Part shown: piece by piece, positions 50,586-56,400 of the stretch
How the letters are laid out: each line of letters begins with the position of its first letter
How positions within the stretch are numbered: position 1 is the first letter of the stretch
Assembly (NCBI GenBank): GCA_944320795.1
Contig: CALUIU010000018.1
Coordinates: 1-62,729 of the forward strand
DNA: 62,729 bases
DNA from: Candidatus Paraprevotella stercoravium
Lineage (GTDB): Bacteria > Bacteroidota > Bacteroidia > Bacteroidales > Bacteroidaceae
Direction of reading: 5' to 3'
Notes under the pieces: model-generated
What the model saw: only the letters and a program-made list of their open reading frames with translations
Told to the model about the DNA's origin: nothing
Databases searched by the model: none
Translations under genes and position numbers: made by a program

Positions 50586-51173
50586 TTAGAGCGGCGAAGT
50601 TAGTGATTTGGCCTGAAAAAATGAAGCCGATTCTTTGTCTTTTTGATTTTCTTCATTGACTTTTAGGATCCATTCCTTCAATTCTTCGTACGATGCCATT
50701 TTCTGATCACTATAAACGGCTCGGATGATATTCCGTGCATCAATTATATAAAGCATGGGGACACCGTTATAGGCAAACCGGTCATAGACAATTCGGGTTT
50801 CCTGAGGAGATACCGGCATGGTAAATTGATGTTGTTGCCAGTATTGTTTTACTGCTGTTGCTTTCTCTTCTCTTCCAATGCAGATCAGTTGCCATAAAGA
50901 ATCCTGACGGCAATCCCGATATACCTGTTCAATGACAGGCAGTTCTTTTTGGCAATCACTGCATGCCGTGTGGAAGAATACCAATACCAGCGTTTTTTCT
51001 TGATGACTGTCTTGGGTCAATGTGTCCTGATCCAGTGTGATAACCTGAAACTCAGGTATGGTATCTCCTATAGAAAGTTTGCTTCCTGTATTTGTGAACT
51101 CCATCGGCTCACTGATACAAGATGTCAGGAACATGATGGAGTATAAGCATAAAAAAAGAAATTGTTTTTTCAT
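50586..51173 (-). CDS. Lipoprotein thioredoxin-like protein (TlpA/redoxin)
   Basis: 195 residues with a lipoprotein signal (IMFLTSC) and a thioredoxin fold with a CxxC active site in FFHTACSDCQKELP and cis-Pro region YNGVPMLYIID. It is anchored in the periplasm and probably reduces disulfides or carries electrons to a partner. Start overlaps the DUF3810 stop by one base (TAATG), showing tight coupling. Confidence 0.85.
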   Translation of the reverse strand: MKKQFLFLCLYSIMFLTSCISEPMEFTNTGSKLSIGDTIPEFQVITLDQDTLTQDSHQEKTLVLVFFHTACSDCQKELPVIEQVYRDCRQDSLWQLICIGREEKATAVKQYWQQHQFTMPVSPQETRIVYDRFAYNGVPMLYIIDARNIIRAVYSDQKMASYEELKEWILKVNEENQKDKESASFFQAKSLTSPL

Positions 51174-52279
51174 TATTTGATAGGTTTTGAGGAGCTGTTC
51201 AGGCCGAATGCCAGCTGTTCGCGCTCAGAGATGATGAGAGACAGTACTTGTCCGTAGTTTTTTTGTCCGTTGCTGATTTGGTTTCCTTTGAGAAAGGATT
51301 CATACAAGATATTCTGTATCTTTCCAATCCACGGGGAATATTTTTCTTTCCAATAAAGATGTTCCTGTTCGGCCAGTGCCAGAATTTCCGGTCGTATGCC
51401 TGTGACCCAGATATGATATTGTTCGTCATCAAGACATCCGTATGCCTGATTCATGACGTAAGGCAATATACCAAGGTAACCGCTGAAACGGACTGATGGA
51501 TTCTTGCTGGCCGTGCATACCTTATATGCCCAATAATTTGCTTCGGCTTCACTGCTTATGCTTAGTAAATGTGCCAGTTCATGAGCATATGTAAAAGGGT
51601 ATTGTGGTGGTAGCAAGTCTTCATTCACTTGCATCTCGCAAAAAAAAGGTCCCATGAATCCCAACACGCCTACTTGGGAATAGAGGGTATTGAAGGCCAG
51701 TTTTTTGGGAATAAAATGCTCTTGAGGCAAGCAGAGGGATGCTTGTGAAGGAATGGTATGATAGATATTTCTGATTTCCTTTTCCCATAACTTGGTGTCA
51801 GGATGCCTGTCAAAAGATATGTAACTTTGGTTCAGGGCTTCGGTGTAATCATGCAGAAAGCTTTGAAAGACAGAATCTTCATATGCAACGGGAGTTAACA
51901 TCATGCGCTGATAGAAAGAGTGTCTGAAATAATTGATCCCCCAACCCCAATAAAACCAAACGGTAATCCAAAGCAGAATTTCAATGCAACTCCGTATCTG
52001 TTTCTTCCAATTATGTTTACGAAGTTTCAGCAAACGGAAGAGCAACAGCAGGACAAAGAGGCAGACTACCAACTCTTCTAAAGAAAAACGTGATATGCTT
52101 GCCAGATGCGACAGAAAATAGGAGATCTTGGGATAAAGGCGGGTGGCATAGAATTCTCCGACCGCATGATTCATTCGAGACAAAAGAACAAATCCTAATA
52201 AAAGCAGTAGAATTACGTATCGAAGGGTGTTGCTCCGATAATATGATATGATATGGTGAAATCGGTAGGGTTGCTTCAT
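51173..52279 (-). CDS. DUF3810 membrane protein with metallopeptidase-like HELAH motif
   Basis: 368 residues: an N-terminal part with three membrane helices (YVILLLLLGFVLL, VVCLFVLLLLFRLL, LLWITVWFYWGWGI) and a soluble domain with AHELAHLLSISSEAEANYW, resembling the HExxH...E zinc site of gluzincins. Function unknown. It heads the operon with a redoxin and LuxR regulator and follows a structured leader RNA (52311-52571). Start ATG at 52279 is 18 nt after a small GGAG/CTCC hairpin (52297-52307). Confidence 0.8.
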   Translation of the reverse strand: MKQPYRFHHIISYYRSNTLRYVILLLLLGFVLLSRMNHAVGEFYATRLYPKISYFLSHLASISRFSLEELVVCLFVLLLLFRLLKLRKHNWKKQIRSCIEILLWITVWFYWGWGINYFRHSFYQRMMLTPVAYEDSVFQSFLHDYTEALNQSYISFDRHPDTKLWEKEIRNIYHTIPSQASLCLPQEHFIPKKLAFNTLYSQVGVLGFMGPFFCEMQVNEDLLPPQYPFTYAHELAHLLSISSEAEANYWAYKVCTASKNPSVRFSGYLGILPYVMNQAYGCLDDEQYHIWVTGIRPEILALAEQEHLYWKEKYSPWIGKIQNILYESFLKGNQISNGQKNYGQVLSLIISEREQLAFGLNSSSKPIK

Positions 52280-52310
52280 GATTGTTGGATTTTTAAGGAG
52301 AGACTCCTAT

Positions 52311-52571
52311 AAAAACAAAGAAAGAGGAAGTATCCGCTGATACGCCCTCAAGCAAACAAACTAATAAATTTCAATTTAAAGAGTGCTTGAACGAACCTTA
52401 TTGTCCGTAGCACTCCAGCGCATTTCTGTTAGCACTTGTTGCAAGTGTTTTACAGAATGCAAAGTGTCATAATTTTTGAAACCCTTAAACATTAACAATC
52501 TATCACCTAATACACTCTTCACAGAGTCATTTAACTTTGAGTATATAACTCTTTTCTTAATTATGACATTG
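52311..52571 (-). ncRNA. Structured leader or small RNA 'A', upstream of the DUF3810 operon
   Basis: Begins just after a TTG-N20-TAAATTTG promoter. Features in order on the minus strand: a 10-nt arm (52559-52568) pairing with 52465-52474; a hairpin with a 5-bp stem and GTGA loop (52514-52527); a 27-nt motif (52481-52507) 6 nt after it; a compound hairpin (52420-52460) containing a 6-bp CACTTG helix; a hairpin at 52378-52416; and a terminator-like hairpin (52324-52349) followed by a T-rich tract. The same architecture recurs in RNA B. It may be a free sRNA or an attenuating leader of the DUF3810 operon; Rfam Bacteroidales-1 is one candidate family. Confidence 0.7.
52324..52349 (-). terminator. 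Terminator-like hairpin at the end of RNA A
   Basis: GAGG..GTATC pairs with GATAC..CCTC on the minus strand, followed by a T-rich tract (52311-52323), 45 nt before the DUF3810 start. Confidence 0.6.
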
Positions 52572-52602
52572 CAAATTTACATGATTTCTATCCTTAAGTC
52601 AA
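52572..52602 (-). promoter_or_regulatory. Promoter of RNA A
   Basis: Minus-strand TTG (52600-52602), 20 nt, TAAATTTG (52572-52579), the full Bacteroidetes pattern. Confidence 0.8.
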
Positions 52603-52639
52603 GAAAATCATGCCTTTATATATTTTTTTTCGCTATTTC

Positions 52640-52653
52640 TTGATATAAATCAA
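52640..52653. promoter_or_regulatory. TTGAT-N4-ATCAA palindrome (CRP/FNR-type site)
   Basis: TTGATATAAATCAA has the half-sites typical of CRP/FNR-family regulators. It lies exactly 60 nt upstream of the RNA A -7 box and also overlaps the -33 region of the divergent permease promoter. Confidence 0.65.
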
Positions 52654-52664
52654 TTAAGAAGCTG

Positions 52665-52672
52665 TATTTTTG
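52665..52672 (+). promoter_or_regulatory. Promoter -7 box of the NCS2 permease
   Basis: TATTTTTG, with a TTG at 52640-52642 that belongs to the palindrome; spacing 22 nt. Confidence 0.55.
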
Positions 52673-52716
52673 CAGTTTCAAAAAACAATTGTAATATTTT
52701 TGTAAATAAAAATCAA

Positions 52717-54030
52717 ATGAAAGAAAACGGAGATTTGATTTATGGACTGGAAGACCGTCCGCCTGTGAAAGATGCCTTGTTTGCAGCATTGCAACACTTG
52801 TTAGCTATTTTTGTGGCTATCATTACCCCCCCTCTCATTATTGCCGGTGCCATGAAACTGGACTTGGAAACTACAGGTTTTCTGGTATCCATGGCTTTGT
52901 TCGCATCAGGTGTCTCTACTTTTATTCAATGTCGTCGGATCGGTCCGGTCGGAACCGGTTTGCTTTGTATCCAGGGAACAAGCTTTTCATTTATCGGTCC
53001 GATTATTGCTGCCGGTCTTTCCGGTGGTTTGGCTTCGGTTTTTGGAGCTTGTATGGCGGCCTCATTTGTAGAGATGGCTATTAGTCGTGTACTGAAATAT
53101 ACCCGCAAGATCATTACTCCGTTGGTATCCGGTATTGTGGTGACACTTATCGGTATGAGTCTGATTAAAGTGGGTATTACTGCTTGCGGTGGTGGAGCTG
53201 TGGCTCAGGCTGACGGAAGTTTCGGATCTTTGCGTTATATTGGTCTGGCGGCTTTGGTATTGGTACTCATTGTGATTTTCAACAGAAGTTCTAACCGCTA
53301 TTTGCGTATGAGTTCTATTGTTATTGGCCTTGTTATCGGTTATGCTGTGGCTTGGTCTATGGGTATGGTTGATTTTTCGGCCGTGCAGAGTTATGGTGGT
53401 TTCAACATTCCGGTACCTTTTAAATATGGTCTGTCATTTGACTGGTCTGCCATTATCGCCTTGGGACTTGTTTATTTGATTACCGCTATTGAAGCATATG
53501 GTGATATTACAGCCAATTCATTGATTTCCGGAGAACCTGTTGAAGGTGAAGTTTTTGTGAAGCGTGCTTCCGGTGGTATTCTGGCTGACGGTTTCAATTC
53601 ATTCCTGGCTGGAGTGTTCAACTCTTTCCCGAACTCTATCTTTGCCCAGAATAATGGAATGATTCAGTTGACGGGAGTTGCCAGCCGCTATGTGGGTTAT
53701 TATATTGCCGGTTTTCTGATCCTGTTAGGGCTTTTTCCGGCGGTGGGACTGGTGTTCTCGTTGATGCCAGAACCGGTTTTGGGAGGCGCTACACTGCTGA
53801 TGTTCGGTACGGTTGCTGCGGCGGGTATCCGTATTATTGCGGCTCAGAAGATTGACCGCAAGGCTACTCTGGTTATGGCCTTGAGTTTCTCTTTCGGTTT
53901 GAGTGTAGAGCTTGTTCCGGAGATTCTGACACAGTTGCCTGAAGCTGTACGCAGCATTTTCGCTTCTGGTATTACTACTGGAGGACTTACCGCTATTCTG
54001 GCTAATATGCTGATTCGCATCAAGGATTAA
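52717..54030 (+). CDS. NCS2-family xanthine/uracil permease
   Basis: 437-residue inner-membrane carrier with about 14 segments. The nucleobase-ascorbate transporter signature QNNGMIQLTGVASR is present, as are ALQHLLAIFVAIITPPLI (His in segment 1) and TAIEAYGDITA (conserved Glu in segment 8). It imports a purine or pyrimidine base with a cation; the spacing of motifs resembles xanthine/uric acid carriers but the exact base is not settled. Single gene lying between the two structured RNAs, transcribed the other way. Confidence 0.88.
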   Translation: MKENGDLIYGLEDRPPVKDALFAALQHLLAIFVAIITPPLIIAGAMKLDLETTGFLVSMALFASGVSTFIQCRRIGPVGTGLLCIQGTSFSFIGPIIAAGLSGGLASVFGACMAASFVEMAISRVLKYTRKIITPLVSGIVVTLIGMSLIKVGITACGGGAVAQADGSFGSLRYIGLAALVLVLIVIFNRSSNRYLRMSSIVIGLVIGYAVAWSMGMVDFSAVQSYGGFNIPVPFKYGLSFDWSAIIALGLVYLITAIEAYGDITANSLISGEPVEGEVFVKRASGGILADGFNSFLAGVFNSFPNSIFAQNNGMIQLTGVASRYVGYYIAGFLILLGLFPAVGLVFSLMPEPVLGGATLLMFGTVAAAGIRIIAAQKIDRKATLVMALSFSFGLSVELVPEILTQLPEAVRSIFASGITTGGLTAILANMLIRIKD

Positions 54031-54057
54031 TTTTTGAAATCCCTATAACATGAAATC

Positions 54058-54092
54058 GGGGGTGTGCTCATTCAGAGTACAGCCCCTTTTTA
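54058..54092 (+). terminator. Terminator after the permease
   Basis: GGGG.TGTGCTC pairs with GAGTACA.CCCC, then five T. Confidence 0.8.
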
Positions 54093-54343
54093 TATTCTTT
54101 TCTGAAAAAACTTATGTAATGACTATTCATATTTGGGGGGTCCGAAGAAGATCTTGATTTTATTTCTTGTTTTGATTTGGAGTTTTGATAGACAATTTTG
54201 GGTGGAAACATTTACAACTTTTGCAGACTTTATAAAACTTATAATGGAAGAACTTTGTTTTGCTAAACAAAATTCTAATCTTGTTCGGGTGTATGATATG
54301 AATTAAATTAAACAGAGCTGACATGTTGGTGGGGTATAGAAAC

Positions 54344-54376
54344 GAAAAAAGACATGCTTTCACGCATGTCTTTTTA
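54344..54376. terminator. Terminator of RNA B
   Basis: AAAAAGACATGC pairs with GCATGTCTTTTT around a 6-nt loop; strong T-runs on both strands. Confidence 0.88.
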
Positions 54377-54656
54377 TGATGAATGAATTTTTTTCTTTCT
54401 AAAGGTGCCTCAACTTCACAGTATCCAGCACCTGTCTTGTTTTTGGAAGTAAACTTTTTTCGTTTTCCTTCCTTGAAGAACTTGCTCACTGTAGTCATTT
54501 AAAATGACTAACAGTGAATTCTTCTTCATGAGTCATAAGTCACTACCTTAATTACCTTAAATTACCCTTAAAACTAAACAACCTTTTACCAATAATATCT
54601 CTCACGAGATCCTAACTAATACCTTAATATGTTACCCTTATTTCCTTATGACATTG
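54349..54656 (-). ncRNA. Structured RNA 'B', paralogue of RNA A
   Basis: Starts just after a consensus promoter. An 8-nt arm (54645-54652) pairs with 54532-54539; a hairpin with 5-bp stem and GTGA loop lies at 54597-54610; the 27-nt motif at 54564-54590 is 6 nt further on and matches RNA A at 21 of 27 positions. Stem sequences differ from RNA A but remain complementary. Downstream come a tiny open frame, a hairpin around 54493-54515 and a terminator. The remaining gap 54093-54343 shows no gene. Confidence 0.7.
54416..54529 (-). CDS. Possible 37-residue small protein in RNA B
   Basis: The ATG at 54529 starts a 37-codon frame (begins MKKNSLLVILNDYSEQ, ends QDRCWIL) that stops 40 nt before the terminator stem. 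Its start abuts the 3' arm of the closing stem of RNA B (54532-54539). Overlapping alternatives exist: a 13-codon frame from 54536, and a longer frame from 54498 coupled to it by ATGA, but the latter runs straight through the terminator and is less credible. No known family recognised. Confidence 0.4.
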   Translation of the reverse strand: MKKNSLLVILNDYSEQVLQGRKTKKVYFQKQDRCWIL

Positions 54657-54688
54657 CAAAGGTAGTGACTGTTTGCCTACACAGCAAA
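54657..54688 (-). promoter_or_regulatory. Promoter of RNA B
   Basis: Minus-strand TTTG (54685-54688), 20 nt, TACCTTTG (54657-54664): a perfect Bacteroidetes promoter. Confidence 0.85.
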
Positions 54689-54724
54689 TATTTATTCACT
54701 TTTTATGCAAAAAAACTCCTTTTC

Positions 54725-54738
54725 TTGATTTATATCAA
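54725..54738. promoter_or_regulatory. TTGAT-N4-ATCAA palindrome upstream of RNA B
   Basis: TTGATTTATATCAA, exactly 60 nt upstream of the -7 box, the same distance as at RNA A. Confidence 0.65.
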
Positions 54739-54975
54739 TTCTAAAGTGGGAGAACTCTTTTGGAAAGGGATTTTTTAGGATTTTTCGTCAGCTCTTTTCG
54801 AAATATTTTCAGAGGAGAGTTGTGGAGATATGAAGAACGAAAATGATTCTGATTACTGAATTTTTGTTCGTATATTTTACGTTGTTGAATTCTTGTCACT
54901 TTTTTTTGTGCTTTTATGACGTTCTACCCGATAAATATCCGTATTTTTATGCTCAAAAATAAAGATATAATTATT

Positions 54976-56400
54976 ATGGCCAAGGAAAAGACGGTATATG
55001 TTTGTGAAAATTGCGGGCAAGAGTCTCCCAAATGGGTTGGGAAGTGTCCTTCGTGCGGTGCCTGGAATACGTTCAAAGAGTTCCGAGTGCGCAAGGAGTC
55101 GTCGGCTTCACTGGCAGCCGGTTCCTATGGAGGGTTGTCGGCTCTTCCGACATCCGGCAGTGTTCGTGTGCGTCCGTTGTCGGTAGGAGAGATTGATTCT
55201 TGTGCGGAGCCTCGTCTGGATATGGGTGACGGGGAGCTGAACCGGGTATTAGGAGGTGGTTTGGTTCCGGGATCACTGGTCCTGTTGGGCGGCGAGCCAG
55301 GTATCGGAAAATCTACGTTGGTGCTTCAGACTGTGCTGCGCATGCCGCAGCGTCGGGTGCTTTATGTCAGTGGCGAGGAGAGTGCCCGTCAGATCAAGTT
55401 GCGTGCTGACCGTCTGGTCAGTACCCAGCCTTCGGGAGGACAGGATCTGTTGGCTTCGTCCTCGTGTATGATTGTTTGCGAAACTTTACTGGAGCAGATT
55501 TTCCTGCACATCAAGAATGAACAGCCGGGACTGGTTATTATCGATTCTATTCAAACCATCATGACCGAATCTGTAGATTCTTCCCCAGGAAGTATTACCC
55601 AGGTACGTGAGTGTGCGGCTGCTCTGTTGAAATTTGCCAAACAAAGTAATATTCCTGTAATTCTTATCGGTCATATTAATAAGGAAGGAACTTTGGCCGG
55701 CCCGAAGGTGCTGGAGCATATTGTGGATGCCGTGCTTCAGTTTGAGGGCGACCAGCATTATATGTATCGCATATTGCGCAGCATCAAAAACCGTTTCGGA
55801 AGTACGGCCGAACTGGGTATTTATGAAATGCGACAAACGGGATTACGTCCGGTGAGTAATCCGTCGGAACTGTTGCTTACCGAAGACCATGAAGGTATGA
55901 GTGGAGTGGCTATTTCTTCGGCCATCGAAGGAATCCGTCCGTTTCTCATCGAAACCCAGGCTTTGGTCAGCACTGCTGCATATGGAACACCCCAGCGTTC
56001 GTCTACCGGATTTGATTTACGTCGCCTCAACATGCTGTTGGCCGTGCTGGAAAAGCGTGTCGGCTTTAAGCTGGCCCAAAAGGACGTGTTTCTGAATATA
56101 GCCGGGGGATTGCGGGTGAATGATCCCGCCATTGACCTGTCGGTCATTGCCGCGGTGCTGAGCAGTAATGTAGATACCGGCATTGAGTCGGGCGTATGTA
56201 TGGCCGGAGAGGTGGGACTTAGTGGAGAAATTCGTCCTGTGAACCGTATAGAGCAACGCATTGCCGAAGCGGAGAAACTGGGATTCAGTAGGATGATTGT
56301 GCCACGCTCCAACCTTCAGGGATTTGATTATAAGAAAATGAAAATAGAGCTGGTGCCGGTGCGTAAGGTTGAAGAAGCCTTGCGTGCTCTGTTCGGATAA
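54976..56400 (+). CDS. radA: RadA, DNA repair ATPase
   Basis: 474 residues. N-terminal C4 zinc finger (CENCGQESPKWVGKCPSCG), RecA-like core with Walker A GGEPGIGKST and Walker B LVIIDSIQT, the RadA-specific KNRFG motif (IKNRFGSTAELGIYEM) and a C-terminal Lon-like domain (GEVGLSGEIRPV). It promotes branch migration of recombination intermediates. ATG at 54976 chosen because the zinc finger starts nine codons later. Followed after 54 nt by the FAD oxidoreductase. Confidence 0.96.
   Translation: MAKEKTVYVCENCGQESPKWVGKCPSCGAWNTFKEFRVRKESSASLAAGSYGGLSALPTSGSVRVRPLSVGEIDSCAEPRLDMGDGELNRVLGGGLVPGSLVLLGGEPGIGKSTLVLQTVLRMPQRRVLYVSGEESARQIKLRADRLVSTQPSGGQDLLASSSCMIVCETLLEQIFLHIKNEQPGLVIIDSIQTIMTESVDSSPGSITQVRECAAALLKFAKQSNIPVILIGHINKEGTLAGPKVLEHIVDAVLQFEGDQHYMYRILRSIKNRFGSTAELGIYEMRQTGLRPVSNPSELLLTEDHEGMSGVAISSAIEGIRPFLIETQALVSTAAYGTPQRSSTGFDLRRLNMLLAVLEKRVGFKLAQKDVFLNIAGGLRVNDPAIDLSVIAAVLSSNVDTGIESGVCMAGEVGLSGEIRPVNRIEQRIAEAEKLGFSRMIVPRSNLQGFDYKKMKIELVPVRKVEEALRALFG

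Follow-up and report, generated by a model that had tools for sequence, protein, structure and literature searches.

Two related RNA loci in the window

The DNA under study, referred to as the window, is a stretch of 62,729 nucleotides (nt) from Candidatus Paraprevotella stercoravium (contig CALUIU010000018.1). It contains two RNA loci, W1 and W2, both on the minus strand; coordinates are those of the whole window and are collected in Table 1. An earlier reading from the letters alone (the sequence-only reading) had proposed them as a two-copy family of structured, regulatory RNAs. Each locus has one TTG/TTTG-N20-TAnnTTTG promoter at the place given by that reading, one hairpin of five base pairs (bp) closed by a GTGA loop of the GNRA class, and one 27-nt leader motif, which follows the hairpin after 6 nt in both loci and is identical at 21 of 27 positions (78%). 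The upstream palindromes also agree with the reading; they are 14 nt in length, TTGATTTATATCAA in one locus and its reverse complement in the other. The genome has exactly two copies of the 15-mer TTTGCAATGTCATAA, one in W1 and one in W2; one more site differs by one mismatch, and the reversed control gave no site.

Both RNAs are predicted to fold better than their dinucleotide shuffles, with z scores of -3.33 for W1 (0 of 200 shuffles as good) and -5.81 for W2 (0 of 100). Together with the covariation among relatives described below, this bears out the proposal of related, structured RNAs. The generic scans gave no excess over shuffles: a sigma-70 scan of the W1/W2 region gave 7 hits versus 7.1 in shuffles, and a terminator scan gave 3 hits versus 2.8, including the W2 terminator and missing that of W1.

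The Rfam covariance models, including 6S and Bacteroidales-1, had no match in the whole window at the gathering score. A relaxed scan of 52200-54980 produced sub-threshold matches, the best being STnc370 on the W2 terminator (37.5 bits versus a threshold of 54). Neither the FopS model (RF04319) nor Bacteroidales-1 matched this region up to E = 10. Like W1 and W2, Bacteroidales-1 is a structured RNA of Bacteroidales; W1 and W2 do not match its model. Among the sequences of relatives, Rfam recognized FopS, cobalamin riboswitches and one tRNA.

Table 1. Features of W1 and W2. ORF, open reading frame; UTR, untranslated region; G010_1 and G010_2, copies in the related genome G010; transcript ends of W1 are predicted from promoter and terminator.
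Feature	Position	Strand	Remark
W1 box TTGATTTATATCAA, FNR/CRP-type	52640..52653	-	centre ~80 nt upstream of predicted start
W1 promoter TTG-N20-TAAATTTG	52572..52602	-	
W1 predicted transcript, ~260 nt	52308..52567	-	
W1 closing stem, 5' arm TGTCATAATT	52559..52568	-	10 bp stem
W1 GNRA hairpin ACTCT-GTGA-AGAGT	52514..52527	-	
W1 leader motif GGTGATAGATTGTTAATGTTTAAGGGT, 27 nt	52481..52507	-	
W1 closing stem, 3' arm AATTATGACA	52465..52474	-	AUG of coding relatives falls here; 6-codon frame in W1
W1 central hairpin	52420..52460	-	occupies the place of the ORF; hairpin of different sequence in G010_1
W1 3' hairpin GAGTGCT...AGCACTC	52381..52415	-	corresponds to the 3' hairpin in coding members
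W1 segment matching 3' UTR of the coding member at C2:133847	52356..52386	-	
W1 terminator-like hairpin	52324..52349	-	followed by T-rich tail
W2 box TTGATATAAATCAA, FNR/CRP-type	54725..54738	-	
W2 promoter TTTG-N20-TACCTTTG	54657..54688	-	
W2 predicted transcript, ~310 nt	54345..54653	-	
W2 closing stem, 5' arm GTCATAAG	54645..54652	-	8 bp stem
W2 AAGGTATTAGTTAGG	54611..54625	-	GTATTAG in common with FopS
W2 GNRA hairpin ATCTC-GTGA-GAGAT	54597..54610	-	
W2 leader motif GGTAAAAGGTTGTTTAGTTTTAAGGGT, 27 nt	54564..54590	-	
W2 closing stem, 3' arm CTTATGAC	54532..54539	-	here a 13-codon frame
W2 central hairpin	54475..54524	-	loop indel versus G010_2: frame shifted, stem kept
W2 ORF remnant AAGTTCTTCAAGGAAGGAAA	54464..54483	-	19/20 versus own coding member
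W2 3' hairpin GGTGCT...GGCACC	54404..54432	-	
W2 terminator	54345..54375	-	

Relationship to mRNAs of short peptides

A leader model, R1, was built from six leaders; MAFFT misplaced the hairpin in some coding members, which limited the model to six rows. Since W1 and W2 contributed to R1, their own scores are not independent. R1 found 26 matches in 18 of 251 genomes, namely 15 Paraprevotella genomes and, with weaker scores, three of other genera; a box search of the same size contains 16 Paraprevotella genomes. All 26 were read. Sixteen of the 23 Paraprevotella matches are coding and seven lack the ORF. Each coding member specifies a short, hydrophobic peptide that contains an SSTSM motif, one member being truncated where its contig stops. 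The ORF begins with the AUG in TTATGACA, or in a sequence close to it, and this AUG falls within the closing stem's 3' arm. This SSTSM ORF is present in 16 of 16 coding members; from the corresponding AUG, W1 and W2 have frames of only 6 and 13 codons. W1 and W2 do carry the other marks of the family: the box, TAnnTTTG at fixed spacing, the GNRA hairpin and a GGTAAAAGATTG-type motif. The remaining ORF-less copies belong to the two nearest relatives, G010 (two) and G009 (three). The term "two-copy family" is thus too narrow: the leader family spans the genus, and W1 and W2 belong to the branch that lacks the ORF, the rest of the family coding for short peptides. In Pfam and NCBIfam, two of these peptides and the longest W2 frame match no family, and we found no description of the leader family in the open-access full-text literature, where some of the searches used loose terms. 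Two leaders, L111 (G190) and L112 (G177), contain about four GGTAAA-N0-2-GATTG repeats before a 25-residue ORF.

The genome also has its own coding member, with MAFFMFVIIAVGVSAAVVEFNKSNGKFFKKGNTMFFRDEDLKNGATC, at C2:133847; it was found by the box search and missed by R1. Compared to this member, W2 has kept AAGTTCTTCAAGGAAGGAAA as a remnant of the ORF, and the W1 segment GCACTCTTTAAATTGAAATTTATTAGTTTGT aligns to its 3' UTR; in both comparisons, 1000 dinucleotide shuffles gave no score that reached the true one. The three R1 hits outside Paraprevotella lie, as judged by eye, before ORFs of 32, 25 and 25 residues, which suggests that the coding state is the older one.

Very short peptides could still be made from the AUG in the closing stem, which keeps its place in six of the seven ORF-less copies. 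The frames that start there differ in length (6 codons in W1, 13 in W2, 23 in G010_1, 44 in G010_2, 11 in G009_a, 7 in G009_b and none in G009_1) and, past the first codons, in sequence, and we regard this explanation as highly improbable.

The sequence-only reading had taken compensatory change in the closing stem as the mark of a conserved fold. The stem is indeed complementary in both loci, with 10 and 8 bp, but seven pairs are identical between the copies, so the complementary change comes down to one pair (T-A versus G-C) and the longer ends of W1. Covariation appears once relatives are added, and it lies chiefly elsewhere: the GNRA hairpin and the 3' hairpin covary, and the closing stem covaries least. 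In the GNRA hairpin all 30 cells are paired and five of five pairs have changed on both sides (six rows, one helper row). The 3' hairpin has 98.8% of 84 cells paired and nine cells changed on both sides; none of 500 shuffles reached this. Its 14 rows were chosen, leaving out G010_1, whose hairpin is that of W1, the truncated L102, G009_1, and L103, L104, L107, L110-L112 and L116-L119, for which there was no clear counterpart or none was sought. In coding members the loop of the 3' hairpin holds the stop codon, and the hairpin is retained in W1 and W2. At least five closing-stem pairs are predicted in 22 of the 23 Paraprevotella leader members.

Conservation at the two loci was compared with G010, in which fourfold sites have diverged by 37-55% (87/234 in pbuX, 52/95 in the DUF3810 gene and 119/223 in radA). 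W1 shares identical runs of 73 and 113 nt with its counterpart, and W2 shares runs of 87, 81 and 31 positions, the 87-position run including some promoter sequence. Were W1 and W2 transcribed pseudogenes, decayed peptide mRNAs without function, the ORF remnants would be expected, and so would copies such as the weakened G009_1; identical runs of 73-113 nt against such a relative, and hairpins that survive sequence changes, make this improbable.

The genomic neighborhood bears on another possibility, that W1 is a cis-acting leader, an attenuator of the DUF3810 gene (51173-52279), and W2 a stray copy of it. The start of the DUF3810 gene lies 45 nt beyond the terminator-like hairpin of W1, and W1 and its counterparts in G010 and G009 are all directly upstream of this gene on the same strand. 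W2, however, is equally conserved and has no close same-strand gene downstream, facing the 3' end of pbuX instead, and in the coding members of the family each short transcript is complete in itself and has a peptide of its own. A cis-acting role is accordingly improbable as well. The G010 counterparts (L046 and L045) lie on different contigs, that of W1 with pbuX and DUF3810 and that of W2 with radA, so that W1 and W2 are linked to their neighbors and not to each other. Taken together, we consider it likely that W1 and W2 both originated from peptide mRNAs and are functional RNAs.

An FNR-type box at fixed spacing

The palindrome upstream of W1 and W2 is one instance of a box, TTGAN6TCAA. The pattern TTGAYNNNNRTCAA-N56-64-TANNTTTG has 82 sites in 17 of the 18 genomes of the genus, versus one match for the reversed control pattern; the box lies 59-61 nt upstream of TAnnTTTG at all 82 sites, though 56-64 nt were allowed. 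A slightly tighter pattern matched 150 of 251 genomes of the family, and its control gave five matches in two genomes; downstream sequence was read at 30 loci of this family-wide search. We take the FNR consensus to be TTGATN4ATCAA, which the TTGATwTAwATCAA of W1 and W2 fits; the former is found at six places in this genome, the latter only at W1 and W2. By an FNR-type palindrome at a fixed position, both loci are putative members of a Crp/Fnr regulon. The genome has four box sites: W1, W2, C2:133847 and C3:37120.

FopS genes lie downstream of 13 of the 82 genus sites at the same spacing, as judged from a sequence pattern and, for L019 and L021, an Rfam match. There are three true FopS genes in this genome, and none of its four box sites is located at them. 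Among the matches listed, and as named by eye, the other sites precede leaders of short membrane-peptide ORFs, an RNA beside mutS with no evident ORF, a small secreted protein, a 32-residue ORF followed by a second small ORF, one gapA-like gene and one YeiH-like gene. The 69 non-FopS box transcripts share short elements: GGTAAA-N0-3-GATT is present in 48 (shuffled mean 0.3), GTATTAG in 19 (shuffled mean 1.9; W2 has it and W1 does not) and 5-bp GNRA hairpins in 23 (shuffled mean 4.8).

Several other box loci were noted. Those of one type (L138, L140, L141, L142, L149, L161, L163, L173, L184 and L194; L163 is this genome's own copy, near G000:C3 37120) encode RNAs of ~170-240 nt with a GGTAAAA(A)GATTG motif, a terminator, in most a GNRA hairpin, and no evident ORF; in several genomes they lie beside mutS, and the four scanned (L138, L140, L149 and L163) had no Rfam match. 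At L023, L027 and L033, the peptide mRNA shares its box with a divergent cobalamin riboswitch. In genus g3 of the family, whose genomes are larger, box and spacing recur upstream of leaders for a ~117-residue secreted protein (MKRLGLTLVAA...) and for peptides of 24-29 residues (L198-L209); several of these promoters also contain ATGTTATAAAACAT, which resembles the Cur motif.

Candidate regulators were also considered. The recognition sequence of Cur (BT4338) is given as wwwTATGTTnTAnAACATAwww in PMC6989115 and PMC3878776, and the sequences upstream of W1 and W2 have, by eye, no Cur motif as given in PMC6989115; Cur was rejected because its motif differs. Another candidate is the Crp/Fnr protein at C41 of this genome; its close orthologues are restricted to G010 (88%) and G009 (65%), other hits being below 40% over most of its length, and for this reason it was not assigned to the box. 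Its helix PETLSR is presumably FNR-like.

On the plus strand (52640-52702), the W1 box is closely followed by a possible promoter of pbuX, with TATTTTTG 25 nt past the point at which the box starts. One box may therefore serve two divergent promoters.

Possible modes of action

We infer that W1 and W2 are transcribed, as RNAs of ~260 and ~310 nt that are noncoding and act in trans, and that a protein of the Crp/Fnr family binds TTGAN6TCAA ~80 nt upstream of the start and switches their promoters on. Their ancestors would be mRNAs for short single-span membrane peptides; the ORF has been lost, while selection would have maintained a terminator, the hairpin of the 3' UTR, and the leader with its GNRA hairpin and GGUAAAAGAUUG-type motif. 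The sequences themselves show the box at its fixed spacing, the homology with the coding members, the lost ORF, the covariation and the constraint. The signal that drives the peptide mRNAs and, in relatives, also one FopS copy would then drive W1 and W2. We put the probability of this whole reading, in which peptide mRNAs gave rise to functional RNAs that no longer code and that a Crp/Fnr-type signal controls, at about 0.5. The regulatory role given to the pair by the sequence-only reading is likewise something we infer.

As to the mode of action, W1 and W2 would most likely be decoys for a factor that reads the shared leader motif, so that synthesis of the peptides is damped or timed. A reader of the GGUAAAAGAUUG-type motif is preferred since the shared leader and the 3' hairpin are just what W1 and W2 have retained. 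This step is tentative, its probability being clearly below that of the reading as a whole. One variant, in which W1 and W2 are sponges of an RbpB-type protein, was rejected: no RRM_1 protein was found in this 2.8-Mb genome, which is 97% complete, so that a missed gene is possible, and the search did find its positive control in Bacteroides ihuae. An RbpB-type leader-binding partner is therefore unlikely.

Alternatively, W1 and W2 could be base-pairing small RNAs (sRNAs) like FopS whose targets would be mRNAs of other genes; contact would be made by unpaired segments like GGUAUUAG, which has GUAUUAG in common with the FopS 5' region. The excess of GTATTAG among box transcripts and its presence in W2 fit this explanation, and the whole-length duplex with the genome's own peptide mRNA was matched by only 3 of 60 mononucleotide shuffles for W1 and W2 each, a borderline value. 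W1 lacks GTATTAG, and the three FopS RNAs of the genome and the mutS-side RNA gave no excess, 19 to 54 of 60 mononucleotide shuffles being as good. Base pairing appears unlikely to us, somewhat more so than the decoy.

Several observations weigh against the reading of W1 and W2 as selected decoys under a Crp/Fnr-type signal. The RRM_1 result leaves the putative decoy without the obvious partner for its leader. This genome has several Crp/Fnr genes, none of which is tied to the box. Hairpins with the control loop class ARNG are present in 12 of the 69 transcripts, versus 23 for GNRA. The closing stem covaries weakly, 101 of 2000 partner permutations being as good as the true one. W2 does not resemble the P. 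clara ORF, 164 of 1000 shuffles scoring equally well. Finally, in G009_1, the third G009 copy, which corresponds to W1, the promoter is weakened (TAATTTTA) and the closing stem is missing.

FopS and MasB are the known RNAs nearest in kind to W1 and W2. Like W1 and W2, FopS and GibS (RF04319) are paralogous RNAs of this bacterial group, and some share GTATTAG. According to PMC11697453, FopS is ~65-70 nt in length and consists of an unpaired 5' portion followed by a terminator; different from it, W1 and W2 are 260-310 nt long, have several hairpins and no RF04319 match, and appear to descend from peptide mRNAs. MasB, a ~100 nt sRNA, is activated by the Crp-type regulator Cur (PMC10994844). It resembles W1 and W2 as an sRNA of the group tied to a Crp-type regulator, a tie that for W1 and W2 is putative, and differs from them in length and in having a Cur site and not TTGAN6TCAA.

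Outside this group, FnrS of E. coli is an sRNA under an FNR-type box; its sequence is not known to be related to W1 and W2. There are also mRNA-derived or dual-function sRNAs, such as SgrS, in which one RNA bridges coding and regulatory roles. Here, the coding and ORF-less versions are instead separate relatives of one leader family. The origin of new bacterial sRNAs is an open question, and since a single genus holds members that code, remnants of the ORF and conserved RNAs without it, the step from mRNA to sRNA becomes traceable and testable.

More broadly, a Crp/Fnr-type regulon in Paraprevotella might couple FopS, tiny membrane peptides and structured leaders, with some of the mRNAs having become decoy noncoding RNAs that keep the leader and the 3' hairpin. 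We offer this picture with reserve, as less probable than the reading of W1 and W2 themselves; if it is true, a route from mRNA to sRNA can be seen with relatives that still code, remnants of the ORF and products without it all in view. Many of these genomes also have the box, at its fixed position, upstream of one FopS copy, and this provides a testable lead to a transcriptional regulator of FopS, which the accessible part of PMC11697453 does not identify.

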